Positions 1,717 to 25,789 of a DNA stretch of 27,547 nucleotides are shown piece after piece. Every line of letters begins with the position of its first letter. Within the stretch, counting starts at the first letter, position 1. Origin of the DNA: a virus. The notes below the pieces were generated by a model. That model made no database searches. It was given only the letters and a program-made list of their open reading frames with translations, and was not told the DNA's origin. The stretch spans positions 1-27,547 of IMG/VR virus record IMGVR_UViG_3300030118_001389. One strand, given 5' to 3'. The position numbers and the translations under genes are program-made.

Positions 1717-4230
1717 TTAATCAAAAAAAGATGGTAGCCTATCTGGTTTTAACTCTCCTGGTCGCCACCAATAATCACTACCCTTTTCTCTATTATAGCT
1801 TTCTAATCTATTTATTCGATCATAATAATTATCATTTAATTGTTTATCTAAAGTATCAAATAAATATCGTTGCATAACTGCTTTTGCAAAAAAAGGTTTA
1901 GGTGTCCATGATCTAATAAATCTAGAAACTCTGCCACCATAATTTACATCTTTGCCGTAAATAACATCTATTAAAGCTCCAACAGTAATACCTAATGTAT
2001 CTGCTATTAAAGAAACGACAGGGCCACTAGATATTTCTTTTATTTTTCTTGCATCTGGATTGTTTGATAAAGCATCTCCAATAGGCCCTAATGCACCACT
2101 TCTAAAAAATGCTTCCATCCAAAATTTAGCGTCAAATGTTTTTCTTGGATCACGACCACTTATAATATCGTAAGTCAGCATAGTAGCTGCTGCTGTTAAA
2201 GTCATACCAGCTACAATTTGAGATGTATATTTTGCTTTGTTAAGTATTCCTGGTGGTGCTGTAAAAGCTCTTTGTATGTTATGTAAAATTACATTTATTG
2301 GAAAACTTTTAAACATATAAAATGATAGACCAAGTTCTGCACCAATATTACCTCTTGGAAGTTGAGATGTACGAGCTTGTTGTTTTAGTGAATTTACAAC
2401 AACCATATGATCTTGTTCTGTCAAAACTAAATCTTGTAATTTAGTTGCAACACTTACAGCTTGATCTTCTGGTATATCAGTTCTTGAAGCAATTGCTCCT
2501 GGATCAATAAAAAATAAATTTTTAGATGGTTTGTATGTTTCAGTTGTTCTAATAATATTCCACTCAGCTTCAGTAATTCCATATTGTCTTAATAAAGTAA
2601 TAGTTTTTCCAAACCTGTTAAATTTACCTTTTGATAATTTTTCTAAATCAGCAAGTGAATATTGTATGTATTTACCAAGACCAGCGCCAGATAAAATAAA
2701 TTTACCGCCAGCATTTCTTGCTTGTTGTGTAAATCTTGAAATTCCACCTAATCGTAAAAATGTTGTTGCATAAACTTTTGCAAGTCCGCCACTATCAACA
2801 TCATCAACAAAACGACCCATAGCCATATTATTTTGTACTAAATCATCTAAAATTAAACCAAGGTATGCTGCTTCTTTTCTACCAGCTTTACCTCTAAATT
2901 GTTCTCCTAGTGATTTTACTACAGCTGTCCAGGGCGACCAACCACGCAAAGACGCATTTTGAAAAGTTGTGGCTAAATCTCCAAACAAAACTGTAATACC
3001 AGATCCACCAAGAAGTGTGCCTGTAAGCACATTTCTAAAACCACTAAATACTTTAGCTGTTAGTGCATCACTTTTAAGATGACCTCTACCAACAAATAAA
3101 TCGTATTCGTCTTGTGCTTTTTTTATAAAAGTTTTACTTCGATCAATTTCATTTTGTCTACCAACAACACCAGCTACTTTTTTTCTTTTTGTTAATCTTG
3201 TTTTATCAGCAGTTTCTAAAACAAATTGTTGTAAAGTATTTCTTACAACATTTGGTTTTGGTCCAAATATTTGTGTTTCTGCAATAGCTCTACTCATAGT
3301 ATCTAATTGCTCATACAACATCATAATCGGATCAGAACCAAAACGATCATTGTAAGTAATAAAACTATCAGCATCTTTAAAAACTAAAAAACGACTTTCT
3401 TGAAATTGTTTTAGTCCTGTTTTTTTACCTTTACCTGTACCATCTGTAAGTATATTTCTTAAAGATGCAGCAAGAGCTTTATCGAACTCTGTTTCAGAAA
3501 CTAGATCAAAAGTAAGTCCTGTTTTATCATCAACCATTTTTGATTTATCAAGAAGTGGTTTTATAAAAGATACCCATTCGTCATTTGATATTTTACTTTT
3601 AATTATAGATCTTACATTATGTGATTGAGGAAATTTCCAATTTGGGTTTTTATTAACAAGAACACCATTTTTTGCCAACATAACTCTAGCTTTTTCAAAA
3701 ACTTCTACGAGTGATTTTGCAATAATTTCAGAACCCTTATTACCAGTTGATCCAGGCACAAACATTTCTTGAACTAATGTTCTTGGACTTGCTCTTTTAT
3801 ATCTTCTAATTAATGGCATAGCGTATGCTTCCATAAGATCTGATAAATCTTTTGTGAGCATACCAAAAACAACTTTTTGTCTTATCTCTAAATTATTTAA
3901 TATTCTTTTACCCTCTGCTTTACCATGCAAAGCTCTATACCCTTGTGCAACATCTATTTCGCCATTACTGTTTAAATATTCTTCTATTTGTGTTTTTAGT
4001 TGTTGGTATTTTTTTGCTGCAATCGTATCTTCTATAGCTCTTTGTTTTACTTTCTTTTTTAATATTTTGTATGTAGCATTACTTGCAGCTTGTGTTGCTT
4101 CTAATTCAGATAATGTTTTAGAAAACATTTCTAATTGATCGTCAAATGATTTTAGTAATTCTTCTTCTTGTTTAGAATTTACAATACCAGCTTTTGCTGC
4201 TTTAACTATACATTCACGAAAACTAGGCAT
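1717..4230 (-). CDS. Large internal virion protein, gp16-like (C-terminal part or partner)
   Basis: This 837-aa protein is probably an internal virion or DNA-ejection protein working with the products of the next two genes. It is Lys/Arg-rich with a coiled-coil-prone N-terminus (about residues 20-90) and Gly/Ala-rich hydrophobic stretches (about 385-420 and 655-680), typical of proteins that line an ejection channel. The C-terminus ends WWRPGELKPDRLPSFFD, a tryptophan- and proline-rich tail I associate with large podophage internal proteins. It lies between a gp15/gp16-like gene and the tail fibre, the position of gp16 in T7. Its start overlaps the preceding stop (TAATG), so translation is coupled. 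No catalytic motif is visible. Function is from position and composition. Confidence 0.6.
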   Translation of the reverse strand: MPSFRECIVKAAKAGIVNSKQEEELLKSFDDQLEMFSKTLSELEATQAASNATYKILKKKVKQRAIEDTIAAKKYQQLKTQIEEYLNSNGEIDVAQGYRALHGKAEGKRILNNLEIRQKVVFGMLTKDLSDLMEAYAMPLIRRYKRASPRTLVQEMFVPGSTGNKGSEIIAKSLVEVFEKARVMLAKNGVLVNKNPNWKFPQSHNVRSIIKSKISNDEWVSFIKPLLDKSKMVDDKTGLTFDLVSETEFDKALAASLRNILTDGTGKGKKTGLKQFQESRFLVFKDADSFITYNDRFGSDPIMMLYEQLDTMSRAIAETQIFGPKPNVVRNTLQQFVLETADKTRLTKRKKVAGVVGRQNEIDRSKTFIKKAQDEYDLFVGRGHLKSDALTAKVFSGFRNVLTGTLLGGSGITVLFGDLATTFQNASLRGWSPWTAVVKSLGEQFRGKAGRKEAAYLGLILDDLVQNNMAMGRFVDDVDSGGLAKVYATTFLRLGGISRFTQQARNAGGKFILSGAGLGKYIQYSLADLEKLSKGKFNRFGKTITLLRQYGITEAEWNIIRTTETYKPSKNLFFIDPGAIASRTDIPEDQAVSVATKLQDLVLTEQDHMVVVNSLKQQARTSQLPRGNIGAELGLSFYMFKSFPINVILHNIQRAFTAPPGILNKAKYTSQIVAGMTLTAAATMLTYDIISGRDPRKTFDAKFWMEAFFRSGALGPIGDALSNNPDARKIKEISSGPVVSLIADTLGITVGALIDVIYGKDVNYGGRVSRFIRSWTPKPFFAKAVMQRYLFDTLDKQLNDNYYDRINRLESYNREKGSDYWWRPGELKPDRLPSFFD

Positions 4231-6305
4231 TACAGATCTAATCCCTCACATTTAGTTAATTCATCTAACATTCTTTTTTCTTGTTCTAATTCTTTTCTAA
4301 TTTGCTTTATTGTTTTTGTTTCAGTAATTTCTCCAGCTTCATCTATTTGTGATACAATTTTTGTATTTTCTGGTATTTTATTTTCTTCCACAAAATCAAC
4401 ATAATCATTGAAAGCATCATCAGAAAATTCATCAATATAATCTTCATCTTTAAATTTTACCAGATCGCTTTCATCTACACTACTATTAAGTTTGATTAAT
4501 GCTTCATCTACCTGTGCATCACTCATACCCATAGGATCATAACCAGCATCTTCTAACTCTCTAATAGTTTGTTCTATTGATGTAATATTATCGTTATATT
4601 CCTGTAGTTTTGCAGCATCATCTGATCTTAATGAATTTTCTTCAATCAATTCTAAAACACTATTTATATCTAAATCATCAACTTCATTTGATCTAGCTGG
4701 TGGCAACCAGCCATCCTCTCTAGCTCTTGTTAAAAGTTCATCTAAAGAAAAGCCATCTTTTTTTGTGTAACGAAAATAACCTTTATCTAGTATAGCTTTT
4801 ACATCTTCAATGTTTGCATCATCTGGTCTAATTTTGTTTTGTAAAAGCCATTGTCTGAATGTTTGAAATTTTGGTTCTTTTGGTGTTTGCAAACTTGGTG
4901 GCAGTTCTGGATCTGGAAATTTTTCTTTCAGTTCGTTTTTTAAAAATTTAATATCTTTTCTAGCTTTCGCTATATTCTTTTTTATTTTTGTTTTTTGTGG
5001 TTTATATTCTGGTGTATCTGGTAAATCATCTAACATTTCTTCAAAAAATGCTAATTTACTTTCAGCTACTGCAATTTTATTTTCAAGATCTGGTTGTTTT
5101 AATTCTACTTTAGGATCATCAATAATATCAATAGGTTTATCAGTAGCTGCTTGATCCATAGCTGTTTTAACATTTGCATCATATTGTCTTTGACCCTCAA
5201 CAGTATTTGTATATGGATTTTGTTCTTGCTCTATAATCGATTGATTTATTTCATATTGTGCATTTTTAATTTTTGGATTTGTTCTAATATTATTTGGTAG
5301 TTCTTCTATTAATTCAACAAGATCCCCTGGTCGTAATTTATTTATTATTTGATCTAATGGTACATCTAAGTTTGTTTCATCAATTAATTTACTTAATTTT
5401 TTTCCTATAAATTTTTTTGGAAATAATTTTTGATTTATCAAATCATTTGCGGACATAAAACCTTGTGCTGTACTTTTAACAATAGGTTTTGCTCCAGCAC
5501 CAATACCACGCACACCAAGATAAGATACTGGCCCTAAAACTGCACCACCAACAGTTGCTGCAAAAATATTAGTTAGTGCTTGTTTAGTTCCATAAGAAAG
5601 ACCAAGTTCTTTTCTTTGTAGTTGTATTTGTGGTTCTATAAGTGATGCTCTTCCAAATTCTAACATACCCTCAAACAATCCAGTTTTTAAAGTAGCTCCA
5701 GCTATGCTTTTTGGCATAGAGTAAGCAAAAGATAATGGTAGTGTTTGTAATGTTATAGGATCTGTCATGTATTGACGAAAACCAGCACCAAAAGTAGCAC
5801 CATATTTTTGCATAAAACCACGACTTGCTTTTTGCATTTCGCCTATAAGAAATTCATTTGATTGAGCTTTTTTTGCTCTATCTTCTTGAAATTGTTTATA
5901 TGTTTTAAATTCTACATCTGGATTTGCTTGTTGTAATTTTAAAACTTCATTATCCCACCAATCTGTGTGATCTCTATAATTACCTACAGTTGTTCTGCCA
6001 GCACCTTTTTTTGATTGACTTTGATATAAATAGTAAAAAAAATCTTGTCCATCTGCAAGTTGTGGTATTTGATCTATTAATGGATTAGGTAAATCCACAC
6101 CAAATTTTTCTTTTATTTCTTCATTAGCTTTATCGTAATCATCTAAAGCATTATAATATTTTGCAGACGAATATAAAAATTCGCTATTATGCTCTACAAG
6201 TTTTCCGTATAACTCATACGCTGTAGTATTCGTTAAAGATGGTCTTGCAAAATTACTTTCTATTCTTTTTGTTTCCAACGCATTGGAACTATCATAAAAT
6301 TTCAT
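4230..6305 (-). CDS. Internal virion protein, possible N-terminal half of a gp16 equivalent
   Basis: This 691-aa protein has a globular N-terminal part (about 1-230), a Gly/Ala-rich hydrophobic segment (about 235-275) and a long highly charged, probably coiled-coil C-terminal half (about 385-691). It overlaps its upstream neighbour by ATGA and its downstream neighbour by TAATG, so the three large genes are translationally coupled. Together with the 837-aa neighbour the length (about 1528 aa) exceeds that of T7 gp16 (1318 aa), so the gp16 role may be divided between two polypeptides. I do not see the lytic-transglycosylase motif found at the N-terminus of T7 gp16. A role in the ejected core is inferred from position only. 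Confidence 0.55.
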   Translation of the reverse strand: MKFYDSSNALETKRIESNFARPSLTNTTAYELYGKLVEHNSEFLYSSAKYYNALDDYDKANEEIKEKFGVDLPNPLIDQIPQLADGQDFFYYLYQSQSKKGAGRTTVGNYRDHTDWWDNEVLKLQQANPDVEFKTYKQFQEDRAKKAQSNEFLIGEMQKASRGFMQKYGATFGAGFRQYMTDPITLQTLPLSFAYSMPKSIAGATLKTGLFEGMLEFGRASLIEPQIQLQRKELGLSYGTKQALTNIFAATVGGAVLGPVSYLGVRGIGAGAKPIVKSTAQGFMSANDLINQKLFPKKFIGKKLSKLIDETNLDVPLDQIINKLRPGDLVELIEELPNNIRTNPKIKNAQYEINQSIIEQEQNPYTNTVEGQRQYDANVKTAMDQAATDKPIDIIDDPKVELKQPDLENKIAVAESKLAFFEEMLDDLPDTPEYKPQKTKIKKNIAKARKDIKFLKNELKEKFPDPELPPSLQTPKEPKFQTFRQWLLQNKIRPDDANIEDVKAILDKGYFRYTKKDGFSLDELLTRAREDGWLPPARSNEVDDLDINSVLELIEENSLRSDDAAKLQEYNDNITSIEQTIRELEDAGYDPMGMSDAQVDEALIKLNSSVDESDLVKFKDEDYIDEFSDDAFNDYVDFVEENKIPENTKIVSQIDEAGEITETKTIKQIRKELEQEKRMLDELTKCEGLDL

Positions 6306-8773
6306 TGTATAAATTGAACTACGCTTTCCAAATCAAATATGAATGGTTTGTTAGAATTAGGGTACATTAAATATTCTGGCTCTTTTCCATTTTCAACAGG
6401 ATCAAAAAGAGATAGCATATATAATCCTGGGCCTACTTGATCCCAAAAGTATGCTGGATATCTACTTGACATAGCAAAAGATCCAAAAAAACTATCTTCA
6501 TCTTTTGGTTCTGTGCCACCAAAAACTTCAACAGCTGTCAAACCTGTTTCTTGTCTTTGATCTACTTCTACAAAAGGTGTTGCAGTTGGAAGTCCAAAAA
6601 CTATTTCTTCTCCAGGATAAAACTGAGCAGCACCATTTTTACCAGCTTCTATAAGTATGTCATCTCCATTAGGACTATTTGCAATTTTATCTAAAATAAT
6701 ATTTTCGAATGATGCATCATCTAAATCTTTACTATTAAAATTAACTGGTAATATTATTGTTTTACCATTCCATTTGACTGTACCACCACTTACTCTTTCG
6801 CCATCAGCATATGTTGCACCTACAGATTGTTGAATTATTTGCGATATTCTATCTTCGTTATCACGAACTATATTACTTGCATCTTTATTCATGCCATACC
6901 AACCCTCATCTAATCCTATAGATGCAACAGCAAAATTTATGGCAGCTATTTTTGCTTTAAATGTTTGTGGATTGTCATTAAGACTATCTCCTAATTCTTC
7001 AAAAACTATTCTTCTAAAATCTTTGTTTGTTTCAAATCCAGGAATTATTTGTTCATTATCTAACATATAACCTTTTGCTAAATGCACAGCAAAATTTTCA
7101 TTTCCTAATTGCATTTGACCGCCTATTTCAGCTAACAAAGGTGCTTCTTTTGATAGTTGTCTAAATACATCTAAAGAATGTTCATCATAACTATTAACAA
7201 TAAGATCAGCTATTTGTATAATATCATTAGCTCCATCTGCATTTGTAAGTGCATCACTCAAAACTGCAACAGTTTCTTTAGTTAAAAATTGTGGATGTGC
7301 TAAATTATAATGTTCTTGTACTTTTAATCCTTGTTTTATATTAGCATCTACTTGTGCAAAAAATTCATTTTTTTGTGTTTCATCAGATAAATCAGCACCA
7401 AAATTTACTCTTTCAATATTATCAATAAATCCATACTTACTTGCAACAGATAATGCATCATCTTTAATATTATTTGTCATATCATTATTAATGCTTTTAA
7501 ATATATTTAAACGCAATCTATCAAAATCAGATAAACTTTCTTTGTTTTCAATTCTGTTATTATATTCTTCTTCTAATGTTGATATTATTTGTCTACCTTG
7601 TGTGTGATTGTATGTTTTAAATTCATCAACAATATCAACTAAACTAATTAATGCTTCTATATTGCTTACTAGTTGTGGATCATACAATTCATCTGTGCCA
7701 GGCATTTTTAAATTTTTTGCAGTTTCAAGTGCAGCATTTAATTCTGGTAAGTTAGCTCTTGTTATATCTGTAAGTAAAGTTTTGTTATCTTTGTATATAG
7801 CTTCAAGATTTGATGCTATTGCTTTTGTGTCTGCTATTTCTCCATTAAGGGCAACTGTAACCTTATTGTTTGCAATTTTTTCAAAATTTACAATTTGATC
7901 TGTTGTAATTAAACTATTTACTACATCTGGTTGATTTTCTAACAATGTTAAAAAACCTTGTGGATCTTCATCAACCATTTTTTCATACAAAGAAAGTCCG
8001 TACAATTCTCTTAATCTTGCATATTCGCTATCTTTGTCTAAAAATAACTGACTGTCATGTGCTGTTGCAACAATTCCATCTGCACTAAATAAATTTTCTA
8101 ATCCGATTTTTTGTTCGTGCATATTACCATACACAGCTTTAAAAATATTTTGATCTACCTCTGAATTGTAATCGGATATACCAATATCAATAATATTTTT
8201 TCTAATTTGACCTTTTAATTTATACTTGTCATTTTCTAATATTTTAACAAATTCATTATCAAATAATATTTGTGTGGCATTATCACTAAAAGTATAACTA
8301 TTTTTTTTATCGTTTAATAATTCTATAAAATTATTTTGATCTTCTAAATCACTAGAGGTAGCTAAATTTGCAAGTGTATTACTGCTAAATTCTTGTAGAT
8401 CGTTTGCAGCTGTCAAAACTTCATTTTTTTGTTTTATACGAAGTGCAGCTATATCAAATTTATTTTTGTTATCTTGTTCTATTTCATAAACAGTAGTTTT
8501 ATAATTTTCATCTGCTTTAAATTCTTGTAACTCTAATGCTTTTTCTTGTTTGTAATTAGCTATATCAAATTGTGTTTGTGTTTTTGCTTTTTGTAATTCA
8601 AATTGATTTTTTGCTTTTGCATCTTGTACTGCAACTTTTGTTAAAGTATTTCCTAGTTGTTCTACTGATTGACCTACAAGCTGTGATGCTTTTGCAATAC
8701 TTGGTGCTTTTATGACACGATTACTAATTTTTGCTGAAGTTGTTTTGTTTTCAAATGTTGGAATTTTTACCAT
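6302..8773 (-). CDS. Internal virion protein, gp15-like
   Basis: This 823-aa protein lies in the T7 gp15 position between a gp14-like gene and the gp16-like pair; T7 gp15 is 747 aa. The N-terminal 120 residues are rich in Gln, Lys, Ala and Glu and look like a long coiled coil. The rest is a mostly alpha-helical soluble sequence without Cys-based or catalytic motifs. There is no signal peptide or transmembrane segment. It follows its upstream neighbour by 2 bases and overlaps the next by 4. Expected role: part of the core stacked on the portal and ejected into the periplasm at infection. Sequence alone would not identify it; order and size do. Confidence 0.6.
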   Translation of the reverse strand: MVKIPTFENKTTSAKISNRVIKAPSIAKASQLVGQSVEQLGNTLTKVAVQDAKAKNQFELQKAKTQTQFDIANYKQEKALELQEFKADENYKTTVYEIEQDNKNKFDIAALRIKQKNEVLTAANDLQEFSSNTLANLATSSDLEDQNNFIELLNDKKNSYTFSDNATQILFDNEFVKILENDKYKLKGQIRKNIIDIGISDYNSEVDQNIFKAVYGNMHEQKIGLENLFSADGIVATAHDSQLFLDKDSEYARLRELYGLSLYEKMVDEDPQGFLTLLENQPDVVNSLITTDQIVNFEKIANNKVTVALNGEIADTKAIASNLEAIYKDNKTLLTDITRANLPELNAALETAKNLKMPGTDELYDPQLVSNIEALISLVDIVDEFKTYNHTQGRQIISTLEEEYNNRIENKESLSDFDRLRLNIFKSINNDMTNNIKDDALSVASKYGFIDNIERVNFGADLSDETQKNEFFAQVDANIKQGLKVQEHYNLAHPQFLTKETVAVLSDALTNADGANDIIQIADLIVNSYDEHSLDVFRQLSKEAPLLAEIGGQMQLGNENFAVHLAKGYMLDNEQIIPGFETNKDFRRIVFEELGDSLNDNPQTFKAKIAAINFAVASIGLDEGWYGMNKDASNIVRDNEDRISQIIQQSVGATYADGERVSGGTVKWNGKTIILPVNFNSKDLDDASFENIILDKIANSPNGDDILIEAGKNGAAQFYPGEEIVFGLPTATPFVEVDQRQETGLTAVEVFGGTEPKDEDSFFGSFAMSSRYPAYFWDQVGPGLYMLSLFDPVENGKEPEYLMYPNSNKPFIFDLESVVQFIQ

Positions 8774-8775
8774 AA

Positions 8776-9435
8776 TTAATAATTTCCTGGATATTTATTT
8801 GCATAAGCAAGGTTGTTTTCATTTTGTAGATTTATTATTTGTTTATTCATATTATTAATTTTGTTAATAATATTCATTTGACCACTATTATAATTATCAG
8901 TTAATATTTTAGAATTTCTTCTTGTTGTTTCTAATATTTCCGCTTGATTTGCAGCTTGTTGTTGTAAGATATTATTAGTTGCATATGCACCCACCATTGT
9001 TCCAGTTGCTTTAATAAAAGACGCTGCTCTTTGTTGCCTTGCTTGATACAAAGCCATTTCTCCACGCAATTTTTCATTTGTAGCTTGCATTAAGAAATCA
9101 TAACTTGTCATATTTGCATCATATTCTATGTTAAGTTTTTGCAATTCAAATTCAGATAAATTATTATCTAAAATTTCTAAAGGTGTACCTTGATCTAATC
9201 TTACACCAGCGGCAACCAAAGAAACATCAGTAGCAGCTTGTGCTTTTTCGTATTGTTTTTCTGCTATTTTTAAATTGTTTTGTCCTATTTGTAGTGCTGT
9301 TTCAGATTTACCCTCTAAAATTTGTGCATTTTTATTTGCAACATTTTGTGTAAATTTACCAGCTGCCATAGCTGACTGACCAGCAAGTAATGTACCGCCA
9401 GCACTAATACCAGCTGCTATTAAAGTTGGAGCCAT
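8776..9435 (-). CDS. Internal virion protein, gp14-like
   Basis: This 219-aa protein starts with a hydrophobic Gly/Ala stretch (residues 4-27) followed by a long Gln/Ala/Lys helical region. That layout is typical of gp14-type internal proteins, where the N-terminal helix is thought to insert into the outer membrane during ejection. The central stretch VRLDQGTPLEILDNN resembles the conserved block of these proteins, in which a tip after the first helix is followed by a long helix. T7 gp14 is 196 aa. It sits between gp13- and gp15-like genes, as in T7. Start ATG directly follows the previous gene's stop. Confidence 0.75.
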   Translation of the reverse strand: MAPTLIAAGISAGGTLLAGQSAMAAGKFTQNVANKNAQILEGKSETALQIGQNNLKIAEKQYEKAQAATDVSLVAAGVRLDQGTPLEILDNNLSEFELQKLNIEYDANMTSYDFLMQATNEKLRGEMALYQARQQRAASFIKATGTMVGAYATNNILQQQAANQAEILETTRRNSKILTDNYNSGQMNIINKINNMNKQIINLQNENNLAYANKYPGNY

Positions 9436-21880: not shown

Positions 21881-22084
21881 ATGACATCCAGGCAATTAAA
21901 ATTATTTTTAACTAAACACAAGATGACCCAGGGCGATCTATCTAAATTGTTATGGGACTCAGCAACAACAAACGATAGAAATATTATTTCACGCTGGGTT
22001 AATGGTGCTACAAACCCGCCTAGATATTTACATAAATTTTTACTAATTTGTGAGAAACACAACGAACTAAAAAAATCCGACTAA
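21881..22084 (+). CDS. Small HTH transcriptional regulator (Cro/CI-type)
   Basis: This 67-aa protein is a single helix-turn-helix domain: SRQLKLFLTKHKMTQGDLSKLL, then a recognition region NDRNIISRWVNGATNPP and a last helix YLHKFLLICEKH. The pattern 'TQGDLSKLL...RWVNGxxxPP' is that of XRE-family regulators. The ATG follows directly on an A/T-rich element ATATTAGTATATT with no Shine-Dalgarno, so the mRNA may be leaderless. The same ATTAGTATAT 10-mer occurs at 20291-20300 and 24053-24062. It is a lone gene, convergent with the minus-strand operon end. It may regulate either the cassette or the late promoter. Confidence 0.8.
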   Translation: MTSRQLKLFLTKHKMTQGDLSKLLWDSATTNDRNIISRWVNGATNPPRYLHKFLLICEKHNELKKSD

Positions 22085-22097
22085 ATTCGTTATTATA

Positions 22098-22532
22098 TCA
22101 TTTTCTTATCACAATTTTGTCAATCATGTCATTAATTTTTTTATGGCCCTGGTACAACTCCAACCATAAACGAATGTAAGCAATTTCTTCTTCAAAAATA
22201 ACTTTAACTTTTCTTCTATCTTTACCGACAAAACGGCCAATCTGTGAATATGGAAATTTTTTAGCACGCAGCCAAATAATTTTTTTTACTTCAAGATCCT
22301 CGACTATCTGACCTAACAAAATACTAGCAATCCACCACCGACTAATATCTTGGCTGCTTGGTCTTATGATGTACTCAATATTATTGTAAGAATATCTATA
22401 CATTTTTTCTTGCCTGGTTTCTTGCCAAGGCATAGTCAATCTTTGTTTTTTAAAAGGAGCTGGGAGTCTTTTATCTGTTACAGCTGCTTCTTCAAATAAT
22501 TTTACAATATCGTCTGAGGTTATTCTAGGCAT
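22098..22532 (-). CDS. DUF6362-like protein with HTH
   Basis: This 144-aa protein has RPSSQDISRWWIASILLGQI (residues 57-76), then KIIWLRAKKFPYSQIGRFVGKDRRKVKVIFEEEIAYIRLWL. The sequence 'PS.qDIsR', followed by 'vW.RA...p+..I....g..R..+......al..I..rL', is the pattern I remember for DUF6362, common in alphaproteobacterial phages. The second block is a probable helix-turn-helix. It is the last gene of the regulation/replication operon and overlaps the previous gene by 13 bases. It probably binds DNA; the role is unknown, possibly late-gene control or packaging regulation. Confidence 0.75.
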   Translation of the reverse strand: MPRITSDDIVKLFEEAAVTDKRLPAPFKKQRLTMPWQETRQEKMYRYSYNNIEYIIRPSSQDISRWWIASILLGQIVEDLEVKKIIWLRAKKFPYSQIGRFVGKDRRKVKVIFEEEIAYIRLWLELYQGHKKINDMIDKIVIRK

Positions 22533-23119
22533 CCTAAGTGTTTGGCAAATTCATCAGCTCTTACTTTATCATCCCAGTTATTACTTCTTTTTAATTCTAA
22601 ATATGCTTCTGACTTAGATATACTATTTGTTTTTACATAAATTCTATGAGCAACATTTTCTGGATCATTATATGCTTTTCTTTTTCCGGATTTATACAAC
22701 TTAACATTAGCATTACTATTAATAGCAACTTGGCTAACTAATTTTTTTACTATGGATTTATTAATGGATTTATTAATGGATTGGTCGGCCATCTCTGACC
22801 CCCTTTTTTGGACACTATTGGCCTGTGTTACGGACAACTTTGTCAACTTATCATAATTAATTTTATAATCTGTAGCTTTACCTGGACTACCTTTTTTTAT
22901 TTTATAAATAAATTCATGTTCTATAAGTTCATTTAAACCTCTACGAACAGATCTAACACTCATGTTTATGTCTAAAGAAATTCTTTTATGGCTTGGAAAC
23001 AATGCTTTGGTTTTACTATTCTCACGATTTAACAACGCATACATTACACATCTAGTGCAATTCTGTAATTTTTGTTTGGACATAACCAGGCCAAGCAAGT
23101 TCCATTTGTCAACTAGCAT
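22520..23119 (-). CDS. Winged-helix replication initiator-like protein
   Basis: Residues 17-70 form a helix-turn-helix of the HTH_36 type: CTRCVMYALLNRENSKTKALFPSHKRISLDINMSVRSVRRGLNELIEHEFI. In many phages this domain forms the N-terminus of replication initiators of the lambda O/replisome-organiser kind. A Ser/Ile/Asn/Lys linker (SINKSINKSI, about residues 113-122) follows and is encoded by 12-bp tandem repeats. The C-terminus is basic with a small domain ending ADEFAKHLGCLE. The first start overlaps the upstream gene by 11 bases; a second Met at residue 13 (MSKQKLQN) is an equally good candidate, since neither has a clear Shine-Dalgarno. No helicase or primase motifs are present, so it probably recruits host replication proteins. 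Confidence 0.7.
   Translation of the reverse strand: MLVDKWNLLGLVMSKQKLQNCTRCVMYALLNRENSKTKALFPSHKRISLDINMSVRSVRRGLNELIEHEFIYKIKKGSPGKATDYKINYDKLTKLSVTQANSVQKRGSEMADQSINKSINKSIVKKLVSQVAINSNANVKLYKSGKRKAYNDPENVAHRIYVKTNSISKSEAYLELKRSNNWDDKVRADEFAKHLGCLE
22752..22782. repeat. 12-bp tandem repeats inside the initiator gene, possible iterons
   Basis: ATGGATTTATTA occurs twice in tandem followed by ATGGATT, 2.6 copies in all. They encode the linker SINKSINKSI of the initiator-like protein. In lambda the replication origin lies within the corresponding linker region of gene O as repeated iterons. The low complexity and A/T content around it would suit strand opening. The count is small, so chance duplication is possible. 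Confidence 0.5.
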
Positions 23120-23528
23120 GACAACAAATACTTTTTATTCTTTTATAAACAGGAGATGTATTTCTTTTTAATAAATTTGTAATAACATAATTGTGTTTCC
23201 TGTTTAATGATCTAGCAATACTAGACTTGTTTTTTGTTACAAATTCATAACATAAATAACAAAAATCTATTCTAGCATTAATTATATCTTGATGTTTTTT
23301 TGGTCCTATTAAATCTTTATATGAAATATTGTGGCCCATACAAACAGCAAAAGCAAAGGCTTGTGATGTTTTGTAAGTGTTAGGATTAATAGTTAATCTT
23401 GGTTCTACTGATGTAACTGGTTTTTCTGTTAATACATTGTTAGACCAATGATGATATTTTCTTGTTGGACTAAAAACTTGTAAAATGTTTTTAATCTCTA
23501 TCACTTCTTTTTCTGTTAATTTAATCAT
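23109..23528 (-). CDS. DnaA domain IV-like DNA-binding protein
   Basis: The C-terminal part of this 139-aa protein (about residues 78-122) has DIINARIDFCYLCYEFVTKNKSSIARSLNRKHNYVITNLLKR. Its layout matches the DNA-binding domain of DnaA: a helix with an alternating pattern, then S-x-x-x-I-A-R-x-L-x-R, then a recognition turn in which H-N-Y-V takes the place of the usual D-H-T-T-V. There is no AAA+ domain, so this is a stand-alone DNA binder. The N-terminal 75 residues are unfamiliar. It is encoded between the zincin gene and the initiator-like gene and overlaps both, so a role in replication origin recognition or competition with host DnaA is plausible. Assignment is by pattern, not alignment. 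Confidence 0.6.
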   Translation of the reverse strand: MIKLTEKEVIEIKNILQVFSPTRKYHHWSNNVLTEKPVTSVEPRLTINPNTYKTSQAFAFAVCMGHNISYKDLIGPKKHQDIINARIDFCYLCYEFVTKNKSSIARSLNRKHNYVITNLLKRNTSPVYKRIKSICCHAS

Positions 23529-23863
23529 AAACAGCTATTGATCCATTTCAACAAATTAGGGTTATCTTTCAAAATACCTGTAAAAGCATGACTAAAACCA
23601 TTGACAACAACTTCTTCTGTGGCTTCTTTCATAAGATGTTGGTTATAAATTACATGGCTTATTTCGTGCATTAACACCAATACGCTGTAAGAATTAGATC
23701 GTTCAGCAATCTCTTTATCTATTAATATTATTTGTTTTGTTTCATCATAGCTTCCCTCATCATTAGCTACATTGACTAATCCATCATAAAGGCGGACAAT
23801 TATGTCCGTAGATCCTACTTTTATTTCAGTTGGTATAGAAATCGTTTGGCGTAACTTGACCAT
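23525..23863 (-). CDS. Small zincin-type metallopeptidase (HExxH)
   Basis: This 112-aa protein carries HEISH at residues 66-70, preceded by a hydrophobic helix (YSVLVLMHEISHVIY), the zinc-binding catalytic motif of zincins. The N-terminus (SIPTEIKVGSTDIIVRL) and IILIDKEIAERSNSY resemble small phage zincins grouped with ImmA/IrrE-type peptidases. A third zinc ligand is likely in the C-terminal helix (Glu82 or Glu83). It shares 38 bases with the upstream Cro-like gene and 4 with the next gene. ImmA in Bacillus ICEBs1 cleaves the element's repressor, so a role in induction of this phage is a reasonable guess. No substrate is proven. Confidence 0.75.
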   Translation of the reverse strand: MVKLRQTISIPTEIKVGSTDIIVRLYDGLVNVANDEGSYDETKQIILIDKEIAERSNSYSVLVLMHEISHVIYNQHLMKEATEEVVVNGFSHAFTGILKDNPNLLKWINSCL

Positions 23864-24032
23864 CAGTATTTTTCCATATTTTTGTCATATTTTTAGGACT
23901 TGGTATTGATTTACCTTGTAACCAACGCTGCACTAACCTGGCTGGATTTGTTGTATCATCAACCTGTAGTTTGGCTGCTATCTTATTTAAAGACTTTAAT
24001 TCCTGTGTTTTAACCCAATCGTTTAGAGTCAT
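23826..24032 (-). CDS. Cro-like small HTH repressor
   Basis: This 68-aa protein, MTLNDWVKTQELKSLNKIAAKL..., has a helix-turn-helix pattern with the recognition part NPARLVQRWLQGKSIPSPKNMTKIW (residues 29-53), the 'RW..G...PSP.NM..I' ending being typical of small XRE/YdaS-like regulators. It is divergent from the CI-like gene across a 116-bp region that holds operator-like repeats, the arrangement of cro and cI. It heads the minus-strand regulation and replication operon. No Shine-Dalgarno is seen; the ATG is next to operator O1. Confidence 0.78.
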   Translation of the reverse strand: MTLNDWVKTQELKSLNKIAAKLQVDDTTNPARLVQRWLQGKSIPSPKNMTKIWKNTDGQVTPNDFYTN

Positions 24033-24051
24033 ATGCTATGGCAAATAGCAT
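24033..24051. promoter_or_regulatory. Operator-like inverted repeat O1
   Basis: ATGCTAT-ggcaa-ATAGCAT, with perfect 7-bp arms, sits immediately upstream of the Cro-like ATG, downstream of that gene's putative -10 box. Bound repressor there would block the leftward promoter. The half-site ATAGCATT recurs at 24124 and 24852. Confidence 0.7.
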
Positions 24052-24055
24052 TATT

Positions 24056-24083
24056 AGTATATTTACACAAGATTTAAAATTAA
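24056..24083 (-). promoter_or_regulatory. Leftward promoter of the Cro-like operon
   Basis: On the minus strand TATACT (24061-24056, 5 of 6 matches) is preceded at 16 bp by TTAATT (24083-24078, weak). Transcription would start near 24049, inside O1, about 17 bases before the Cro-like ATG. The -10 is good and the -35 poor. Confidence 0.45.
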
Positions 24084-24123
24084 TTAGCAAAAAATTGCAA
24101 TTTGTTGTTGATATTAATTTTAT

Positions 24124-24139
24124 ATAGCATTAATGGCTA
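24124..24139. promoter_or_regulatory. Operator-like site O2 and -10 region of the CI-like gene
   Basis: ATAGCATTAATGGCTA carries the half-site ATAGCATT and an inverted partner AATGGCTA (TAGC/GCTA arms, 7-base centre). The following GCTAAT (24136-24141) is placed like a -10 element 13 bases before the CI-like ATG. No Shine-Dalgarno is present, so the message could be leaderless. Repressor at O2 would autoregulate its own gene. Confidence 0.6.
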
Positions 24140-24148
24140 ATATAGATT

Positions 24149-24787
24149 ATGACTACAGAAATAATGGACAATTTGGTACGGAAGTTAAAAGCCAAAGGGT
24201 TGTCGCAAACTTGGTTAGCAGACCAACTTAAAACACACCCTACACATCTTAATAAAATTATTAAGGGTAAAGCTGCTATGACTAAAAGCATGGCTAGAAA
24301 GATAAGTAATCTAAAAGAAATTGAAGTTACAGAACATGAGCTTATGTACCCAAGTCAACCATTACAAATTGTAGGCCAGTATTTTACAGGGCAAGCTGTT
24401 GAAAAGTTTGAAATAGATAGACCTAGTGTGCATTTACCAAATCCAATACTTCATACTTGGTTTGGAGTATTACATAGAGGACATGAACAAGCTCACAGCG
24501 TATTTCATTGTAGAAAAGAAGATTCATACATTGAAATATATGACTCACATTTTCAAAGAAATAGCCTTATTGATGAAAGAGCTATTGGTAATTCAGCTCT
24601 TATTTGCACAATGGACAATGTATGGGTTAGTTGTAGATTGGGAGAATATGACAAAAAGTATGGTTATTCTTATTGGTATCATTACAACGCATTAACCCAC
24701 TATAGTGAACTAAAATGGGCATCAATCATTATGGGTACTGCTAATTTAAAGGCAATTAACAAAGAATGGGATCTTGATTTCAGCTAA
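24149..24787 (+). CDS. CI-like repressor with an atypical C-terminal domain
   Basis: Residues 1-65 form a helix-turn-helix domain (LVRKLKAKGLSQTWLADQL, then HPTHLNKIIKGKAAMTKSMARKISNL), clearly XRE-type. The remaining about 145 residues start LQIVGQYFTGQAVEKFEI and are rich in aromatics and His (YSYWYHYNALTHYSELKW). I see no S24 self-cleavage signature (no Ala-Gly cleavage site, no Ser/Lys pair in the usual context), so it would not be inactivated by RecA-mediated self-cleavage as lambda CI is. It lies divergently to the Cro-like gene and upstream of the recombination operon. Function as the lysogeny repressor is inferred from position and HTH. Confidence 0.75.
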   Translation: MTTEIMDNLVRKLKAKGLSQTWLADQLKTHPTHLNKIIKGKAAMTKSMARKISNLKEIEVTEHELMYPSQPLQIVGQYFTGQAVEKFEIDRPSVHLPNPILHTWFGVLHRGHEQAHSVFHCRKEDSYIEIYDSHFQRNSLIDERAIGNSALICTMDNVWVSCRLGEYDKKYGYSYWYHYNALTHYSELKWASIIMGTANLKAINKEWDLDFS

Positions 24788-24811
24788 TATTGTGTTTTTT
24801 ACACAAGTTTA

Positions 24812-24839
24812 TTGACGACAATTAGGATTTAATGCTAAT
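24812..24839 (+). promoter_or_regulatory. Rightward promoter of the recombination operon
   Basis: TTGACG (24812-24817, 5 of 6 matches to the -35) is followed after 16 bp by GCTAAT (24834-24839, 4 of 6 matches to the -10). Transcription would begin at about the ATG of the nuclease gene (24848), with no room for a Shine-Dalgarno, so the transcript looks leaderless. Operator O3 overlaps the -10 and start. Confidence 0.6.
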
Positions 24840-24859
24840 AGCTATCTATGGATAGCATT
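24831..24859. promoter_or_regulatory. Operator-like site O3 over the recombination operon start
   Basis: AATGCTA (24831-24837) and TAGCATT (24853-24859) are inverted arms around an inner inverted repeat GCTAT-ctatgg-ATAGC (24841-24856). ATAGCATTATT is an 11-base identity with O1. The site covers the -10, the predicted start and the first codons of the nuclease gene, so repressor binding would shut the operon. Confidence 0.65.
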
Positions 24860-25789
24860 ATTCCAGAATATTACTTAAACTTTGGTTTAGATCACAGCTC
24901 TCCAGCGCAATTTACAAAACCAATTGATTGGTGGATATGGAATTACGCAATAAACGATCAAAAATACAGAAGATCAAGACCTAAAAGTCCAAATATGATT
25001 GGTGGTAATGCTGTCCAGGGGGATAAAACAAGATCATTTATACACCCTACTACAGAAAAAGAAGTCTACATCCAGGCACATGGCCTTGGTGCCTATTTGT
25101 TTGAAAAACAGACCATAGAACAAGCAATTATATCTGCTGAAGAATTTTGCGAAGAACAAAAACTTTTGTTTTCAGGAGATGATTATGAGCATTTTGAGGA
25201 AGTTACTAAAAGAACTCCTAAAGCTATTAGACGAGGTATAGATGCAATAAAAGAATTTGGCATAGAAAAACAAAAAGAATTAGCATCAGAAGATGATGTT
25301 GAATGGCAATATCCTGGTATAGATATTACAACTGTAGGCAAAACGGACATACAAACAAAAAGCCATGTATATGAAATCAAAACAACATGGTTTCGTAAAG
25401 GTGGCAAAAGTAAAAAAGAAAATAAATTATTATTTAGATCTAACAGCTTACCAAGTAAGCCAATGTACGATCATTTATTGCAAACTTCATTTTATTGGAA
25501 AGCTACAGGCAAAGAACCAGTAATTATTTATATAACAGGCAACCCTATTAAAGATGGTAACGGCTATGTTATCTTTACAAAAGAAAATTGTGATGAACTG
25601 ACAAAAGATTATTTAGAAAATTATATTGAAACAGCAAGACAGACACAGCTGGTAAGACAAAATTTATTAAAAATATCTAAGACAAAAAAAGACATAAAAA
25701 AATTAGTGCAGCTTAATTTTAACAATAGTTTTTATTGGAACAATTTTACACAACAAGAAAAACAGGAGATACAAAAATCATGGGTATAA
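24848..25789 (+). CDS. PD-(D/E)XK nuclease, Cas4/RecB-like
   Basis: This 313-aa protein has the core of the Cas4/RecB-type nuclease fold: Asp167 in GKTDI, Glu176 and Lys178 in YEIKTT (the D...ExK centre), and a following HLLQTSFYWKATG in which Gln212 and Tyr216 give the QxxxY motif of that branch. An N-terminal GGNAVQGDK (52-60) is like the conserved G-x-x-(V/I)-H entrance motif, with Gln replacing His. It probably acts as a DNA exonuclease supplying single strands for the annealing protein encoded next. Upstream lie promoter and operator O3. The gene is followed by overlapping small and recombination genes. Confidence 0.85.
   Translation: MDSIIPEYYLNFGLDHSSPAQFTKPIDWWIWNYAINDQKYRRSRPKSPNMIGGNAVQGDKTRSFIHPTTEKEVYIQAHGLGAYLFEKQTIEQAIISAEEFCEEQKLLFSGDDYEHFEEVTKRTPKAIRRGIDAIKEFGIEKQKELASEDDVEWQYPGIDITTVGKTDIQTKSHVYEIKTTWFRKGGKSKKENKLLFRSNSLPSKPMYDHLLQTSFYWKATGKEPVIIYITGNPIKDGNGYVIFTKENCDELTKDYLENYIETARQTQLVRQNLLKISKTKKDIKKLVQLNFNNSFYWNNFTQQEKQEIQKSWV

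Follow-up and report, generated by a model that had tools for sequence, protein, structure and literature searches.

The window, a stretch of 27,547 bases that is an entire IMG/VR record (classed as linear and probably a fragment), most likely carries a CI/Cro-type immunity region belonging to a temperate SAR11 podovirus of the HTVC010P type, a reading to which we give a probability of about 80%. CI would bind a 17-bp inverted repeat at two promoters, its own and that of the recombination operon. The divergent open reading frames described in the sequence-only reading are present as written, at 23826-24032 (minus strand, 68 aa) and 24149-24787 (plus strand, 212 aa), with a 116-bp gap between them. 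A repressor gene and a small Cro-like HTH gene point away from each other across a shared control region, and the early lytic (recombination) promoter has the same dyad as the promoter of CI, as in a CI/Cro-type switch. The 212-aa protein comprises an HTH domain (residues 3 to 66) and a beta-rich C-terminal domain, and it matched PF01381 (E = 3.6e-5) and the repressor family phrog_3 (6.6e-8). The 68-aa protein matched phrog_35, a transcriptional repressor family (4.7e-4), and is conserved across 18 aligned members.

In a first scan, the CI protein alone retrieved no relative, and neighboring genes were therefore used as queries. About 24 related viral contigs were found to have a common gene order and a common operator, and a CI alignment, used to scan more widely, gave 36 loci. 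Most loci of sufficient length have the order replication gene, HExxH or other gene, and Cro, followed in the divergent direction by CI and a nuclease gene.

Proposed operators at the early promoters

A side-by-side comparison of the intergenic regions revealed that each locus examined has a 17-bp inverted repeat at its CI promoter, matching WTAGCATT-N-AATGCTAW with some local variation. In the window it lies at 24124-24140 (ATAGCATTAATGGCTAA), and the same 6-N5-6 dyad occupies the same position in 24 loci. A second copy (TTAGGATTTAATGCTAA), at 24822-24838, lies over the -10 region of the promoter that drives the recombination operon; it is identical within the window clade, is kept in the more distant relatives L139 and L132, and is the sole match to the degenerate operator consensus. 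The candidate -35 element of this promoter, TTGACG (24812-24817, plus strand), is conserved in eight contigs by the exact pattern TTGACGACAATTAGNATTTAATGCTAAT, and the operon mRNA, with its start codon at 24848, may be almost leaderless. Only weaker or rearranged sites were seen at the Cro promoter. A consensus promoter scan of the window gave no more matches than in shuffled sequence, and the promoters proposed here were not among them.

A weight matrix was trained on the CI-promoter sites of distant relatives only, with the window clade and the recombination-promoter sites left out. Across the 27.5 kb it ranked 24822-24838 first (16.3 bits) and 24124-24140 second (13.9 bits), followed by matches in coding regions from 12.4 downward. 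The top score lies inside the range of the best scores from 100 shuffles (mean, 11.7; maximum, 19.3) and is not decisive; it is position and recurrence, not score alone, that give the operator its weight. The first two ranks both fall within 176 bp of noncoding DNA (post hoc P of about 4e-5), and the ranking was similar in the examined stretches of a 34-kb relative. When each locus in turn was left out of the matrix, the recombination-promoter site was the best or second-best match in the window and in L133, L136, L135, L139, L132, L158, L160, and L164. In L140, L141, L143, and L150, one more site, TTAGCATTTAATGCTTA, is found downstream of a TTGAC[AT] hexamer, close to the right-hand limit of the available early region. 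An exact palindrome scan across all viral contigs used a query too short to be selective.

The sequence-only reading had proposed three operators, O1 to O3, sharing the 8-mer ATAGCATT, which does occur at 24045, 24124, and 24852 as it said. Enrichment across the whole window was rejected (4 copies versus 2.8 expected). The copies are clustered, with three of the four inside the 1,034 bp of that reading's region, where 0.105 would be expected (post hoc Poisson P = 1.8e-4). A similar density in coding regions, which it had named as grounds for dismissal, was not observed; one window copy lies outside the region. Conservation in relatives with similar HTH proteins, its other suggested check, was found for the half-site, and a half-site TAGCATT common to the CI promoter and the start of the rightward recombination operon is likewise supported. 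O2 was correctly located, but the 8-mer is merely the left half-site of the 24124-24140 dyad. O3, drawn at 24831-24859, belongs about 9 bp to the left, at 24822-24838. The right arm as drawn occupies codons 2 to 4 of the gene that follows, and L139 and L132 lack it. Reading O3 as a hairpin or operator GCTATC-TATG-GATAGC spanning the ATG was also considered and rejected, this sequence being confined to the window clade and lost in those two relatives.

O1 (ATGCTAT-ggcaa-ATAGCAT, 24033-24051) is present as described and has the 11-base stretch ATAGCATTATT in common with O3. It adjoins the Cro start codon, has the same half-site arranged to face outward, and is a possible Cro site. Its conservation as a dyad does not hold in the closest relative, L003 (93%), whose Cro protein is 100% identical and whose spacer is 4 with one mismatch. 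In type B relatives the arms change together (ATGCTAA-N5-TTAGCAT), which favors function. Perfect 7-5-7 dyads number 11 in the window versus 4.7 expected in shuffles, and O1 is not exceptional by itself; its role as an operator is doubtful. Two other places may be linked. A 6-N5-6 site at 24054-24070 (TTAGTATATTTACACAA) lies over the candidate -35 element of the Cro promoter, with the counterpart TTAGCATT-N-TTTGCAAA in the aligned intergenic regions of relatives, and a perfect dyad, TTGTGT-TTTTT-ACACAA, lies upstream of the recombination promoter at 24790-24806. The two have TTTACACAAG in common, and in L128 and L132 both places are changed and read TTTTGCAAA (given also as TTTGCAAA). This coordinated change suggests that one protein reads both.

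Two other explanations of these motifs were weighed. The shared motif could be mainly an extended -10 element (TGnTAAT) at three early promoters instead of a repressor operator. The right half-site at the recombination promoter does coincide with such an element, and its conservation there is partly due to promoter function; AATGCTAAT precedes the start codon of the recombination gene, and in relatives that of CI as well, at the distance expected of a -10 element; and the recombination promoters of distant relatives keep the right half while the left half varies. At the CI promoter, however, it is the left half, outside the -10 element, that is more informative over distinct sites (10.1 versus 8.3 bits), the 6-N5-6 spacing and symmetry are retained, and exact or near-exact dyads recur at nonhomologous promoters, so that we regard this explanation as improbable. 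The scheme of three ATGCTAT-N5-ATAGCAT-type dyads is very improbable. All of its strings exist, and the covariation of the O1 arms in type B relatives speaks for it, but O1 is broken beside an identical Cro in L003, the right arm of O3 is coding and absent from L139 and L132, and the half-sites of O2 are oriented opposite to those of O1. What stands of it is the type of switch, O2, and the half-site; the dyads as drawn at O1 and O3 do not.

In the CI/Cro-type switch that we favor, the CI-like protein would bind WTAGCATT-N-AATGCTAW through a conserved recognition helix (HLNK). The copy at 24124-24140 would overlap CI's own promoter and that at 24822-24838 the -10 element of the rightward recombination operon, with weaker or rearranged half-sites at 24023-24070 placed at the presumed divergent Cro/replication promoter. 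In a lysogen, CI would hold both early operons off and control itself, and in lytic growth Cro would compete at the shared region. We infer CI as the binding protein, the assignment of promoters to sites, and the bistable behavior.

The repressor, its neighbor, and cassette exchange

His33 of the CI recognition helix is invariant in a 21-member alignment, and the stretch H-[LF]-[NS]-[KR] is kept among CI proteins that are 17 to 81% identical to that of the window, as would be the case if they all recognized one site. An AlphaFold2 model of CI is confident and has two domains (pLDDT 87). A peptidase S24 domain of the kind found in S24/LexA-type repressors was not detectable: PF00717 matched none of the 21 CI members, and hhalign against six S24 repressors aligned the HTH alone and not the C-terminal domain. 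S133 marks the only plausible Ser column, in which family members have S, G, or T, and the strand that follows showed no conserved Lys (columns assigned by eye). The order of secondary structures would fit a LexA-like domain, with S133 starting a short helix. Neither sequence nor profiles link the domain to S24, and autocleavage may have been lost. In five relatives (L162 to L166) the CI gene is reduced to an HTH protein of 85 to 95 aa, and the operator is unchanged.

Directly after Cro lies a gene for a 112-aa metallopeptidase-like protein (23525-23863, minus strand; phrog_1233, 2e-14). Its HExxH motif (H66, E67, and H70) is invariant in 14 members, and its AlphaFold2 model has a pLDDT of 91. 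It had no ImmA/IrrE Pfam match and matched other metallopeptidase families weakly. Going by its position beside Cro, it is a speculative candidate for an anti-repressor.

Seven aligned orthologous contigs carry two versions of the region, and L003 has the same version as the window. L002, of type B, matches the window at about 97% identity in each flank and at 55 to 70% within approximately 23,850-24,780 (Cro, the intergenic region, and CI), and it is 85 to 97% identical to L006 across the cassette. Comparison of CI proteins between the two types gives 52 to 53% identity. The approximately 0.95-kb Cro-operator-CI segment is an immunity cassette exchanged between near-identical genomes, with the operator at the recombination promoter retained. 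A bolder idea, which we hold tentatively and consider rather unlikely, is that the repressor family keeps one recognition helix and operator and has its C-terminal domain swapped, diverged, or lost, so that cassette exchange between co-circulating phages would swap the induction signal and not the DNA specificity, with SOS-independent induction via the HExxH protein.

Genome context, probable integration, and probable host

Phages of the HTVC010P type rank among the most abundant marine viruses. The terminase large subunit (TerL) of the window had its best matches among HTVC010P-type pelagiphage isolates (46 to 53% identity), in line with the marine podovirus virion module recognized by the sequence-only reading and with the related terminase and virion module expected of this group, for which the family Ubiqueviridae has been proposed (PMC10504331). 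The leftward operon encodes an O-like replication initiation protein (22520-23119, minus strand; phrog_678, 1.2e-7; PF13730, 2.8e-7) and a DnaA domain-IV-like DNA-binding protein (23109-23528, minus strand; PF08299, 6.3e-8). The latter is a stand-alone protein with counterparts in relatives, and the window has fewer DnaA boxes than expected (4 versus 7.2). The first gene of the rightward recombination operon (24848-25789, plus strand) is nuclease-like (phrog_1706, 0.0022); in tblastn its product was 29% identical to a region of phage C72C1 (E = 3e-24), in which a Sak-like annealing gene comes next, and 22% identical to a putative nuclease of HTVC028P. Between the early and late genes, 21881-22084 (plus strand) encodes another small protein of the HTH_3 type, 67 aa long, which gave weak matches. 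An Rfam search of the window gave no match.

No integrase gene lies inside the window, which ends before any. The search for one that the sequence-only reading had suggested succeeded in relatives, just past the point matching the window's end. G001, a relative of 34,369 bases that is about 93% identical to the window across the early region, encodes a 416-aa tyrosine recombinase starting approximately 350 bp past that point; HDFR and a later Tyr are visible, and the PF00589 match (E = 1.4e-5) is below the curated cutoff. An integrase gene together with an attP, as in temperate phages, is present in G001 and also in G004 and G005, beyond the extent of the window. The attP adjoining the recombinase gene is the 3' half of a tRNA-Pro(UGG) with CCA and is identical in L016 and L017 despite differing flanks. 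Beside attP, L014 has direct repeats of the integrase arm type, GTTTCAT and ACATAACAAAA, at 772-1053. Exact copies of the attP 42-mer are found in 86 genome stretches whose titles name marine alphaproteobacteria, Pelagibacteraceae among them, which supports the proposed SAR11 host.

In the single-cell genome AG-461-E22 (CACLBK010000019.1, L180), from a marine alphaproteobacterium, a 6.2-kb insert (2947-9184) follows tRNA-Pro(UGG). Its ends, of 134 and 192 bp, match the two arms of the attP of L016 at 94% identity, and its interior holds hsdM, a probable hsdS, and hsdR, which make up a type I restriction-modification operon, and no integrase gene. The attP arms around this insert imply past use of the site in such a host. 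A second 3' fragment of this tRNA-Pro is present in the genomes L086, L090, L031, and L080. In L086 and L090 it lies 1.2 to 1.7 kb away from the intact gene and is flanked by a different sequence, TTAGTGTTAATATAA. The site resembles a hot spot for small islands.

From this genomic context we infer lysogeny and a SAR11 host, both of which are well supported. The HTH pair might instead be a regulatory remnant, or a device for timing the lytic phase, in a phage that does not lysogenize, as happens among phages that have repressors yet do not integrate. The window itself lacks an integrase gene, and in 110 genomes, the family around one attB-bearing SAR11 genome, we found no CI or integrase of this family (a search in which no positive control responded) and no intact prophage. 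An integrase gene with a tRNA-derived attP is nevertheless present in the 93% relative and in others, immediately past the window's end, and phage attP arms are integrated in a single-cell genome; we regard a nonlysogenic phage as very improbable indeed.

Relation to known switches

The sequence-only reading held that a full switch would be notable, most well-known pelagiphages being thought of as lytic. It is less so, as integrase-bearing HTVC010P-type phages, including the SAR11 prophage PNP1, have already been published; PMC11094077, citing Morris et al. 2020 and Du et al. 2021, states that phages of this type can carry integrases and integrate in SAR11. The similarity of the window to temperate members such as PNP1 and HTVC028P lies in TerL (46 to 53%) and, for HTVC028P, in an annotated integrase downstream of the early rightward genes. 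No tblastn match to the CI or integrase of the window lineage was found among the named phage records searched, HTVC028P included.

The switch is ordinary in kind: a new, well-defined CI/Cro-type switch. With the cI-OR-cro regions of lambda and P22 it shares divergent CI and Cro genes, shared 17-bp dyad operators (the annotated operators of lambda are 17 bp, and P22 was compared likewise), a replication gene in the Cro operon, and, judging by position, autoregulation. In contrast to those phages, the recombination operon here starts right behind CI, so that one region serves both early operons; the C-terminal domain of CI cannot be aligned to the S24 domain; and an HExxH gene follows Cro. The ImmR/ImmA systems of ICEBs1 and TnSmu1 also have an HTH repressor without a detectable S24 domain near an HExxH protein, TnSmu1 having an ImmR/ImmA-like pair according to PMC10233336. 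Unlike ImmA, the peptidase-like protein here is encoded in the Cro operon and has no ImmA/IrrE Pfam match, and cleavage of CI by it would be speculative.

We found no description of the lysis/lysogeny decision in temperate HTVC010P-type phages in the accessible literature. An operator conserved across CI proteins down to less than 20% identity makes temperate members recognizable from short contigs, and its definition makes cross-immunity predictable. It also makes the inducer of SAR11 prophages approachable, in a group whose repressor is seemingly not of the autocleaving kind.
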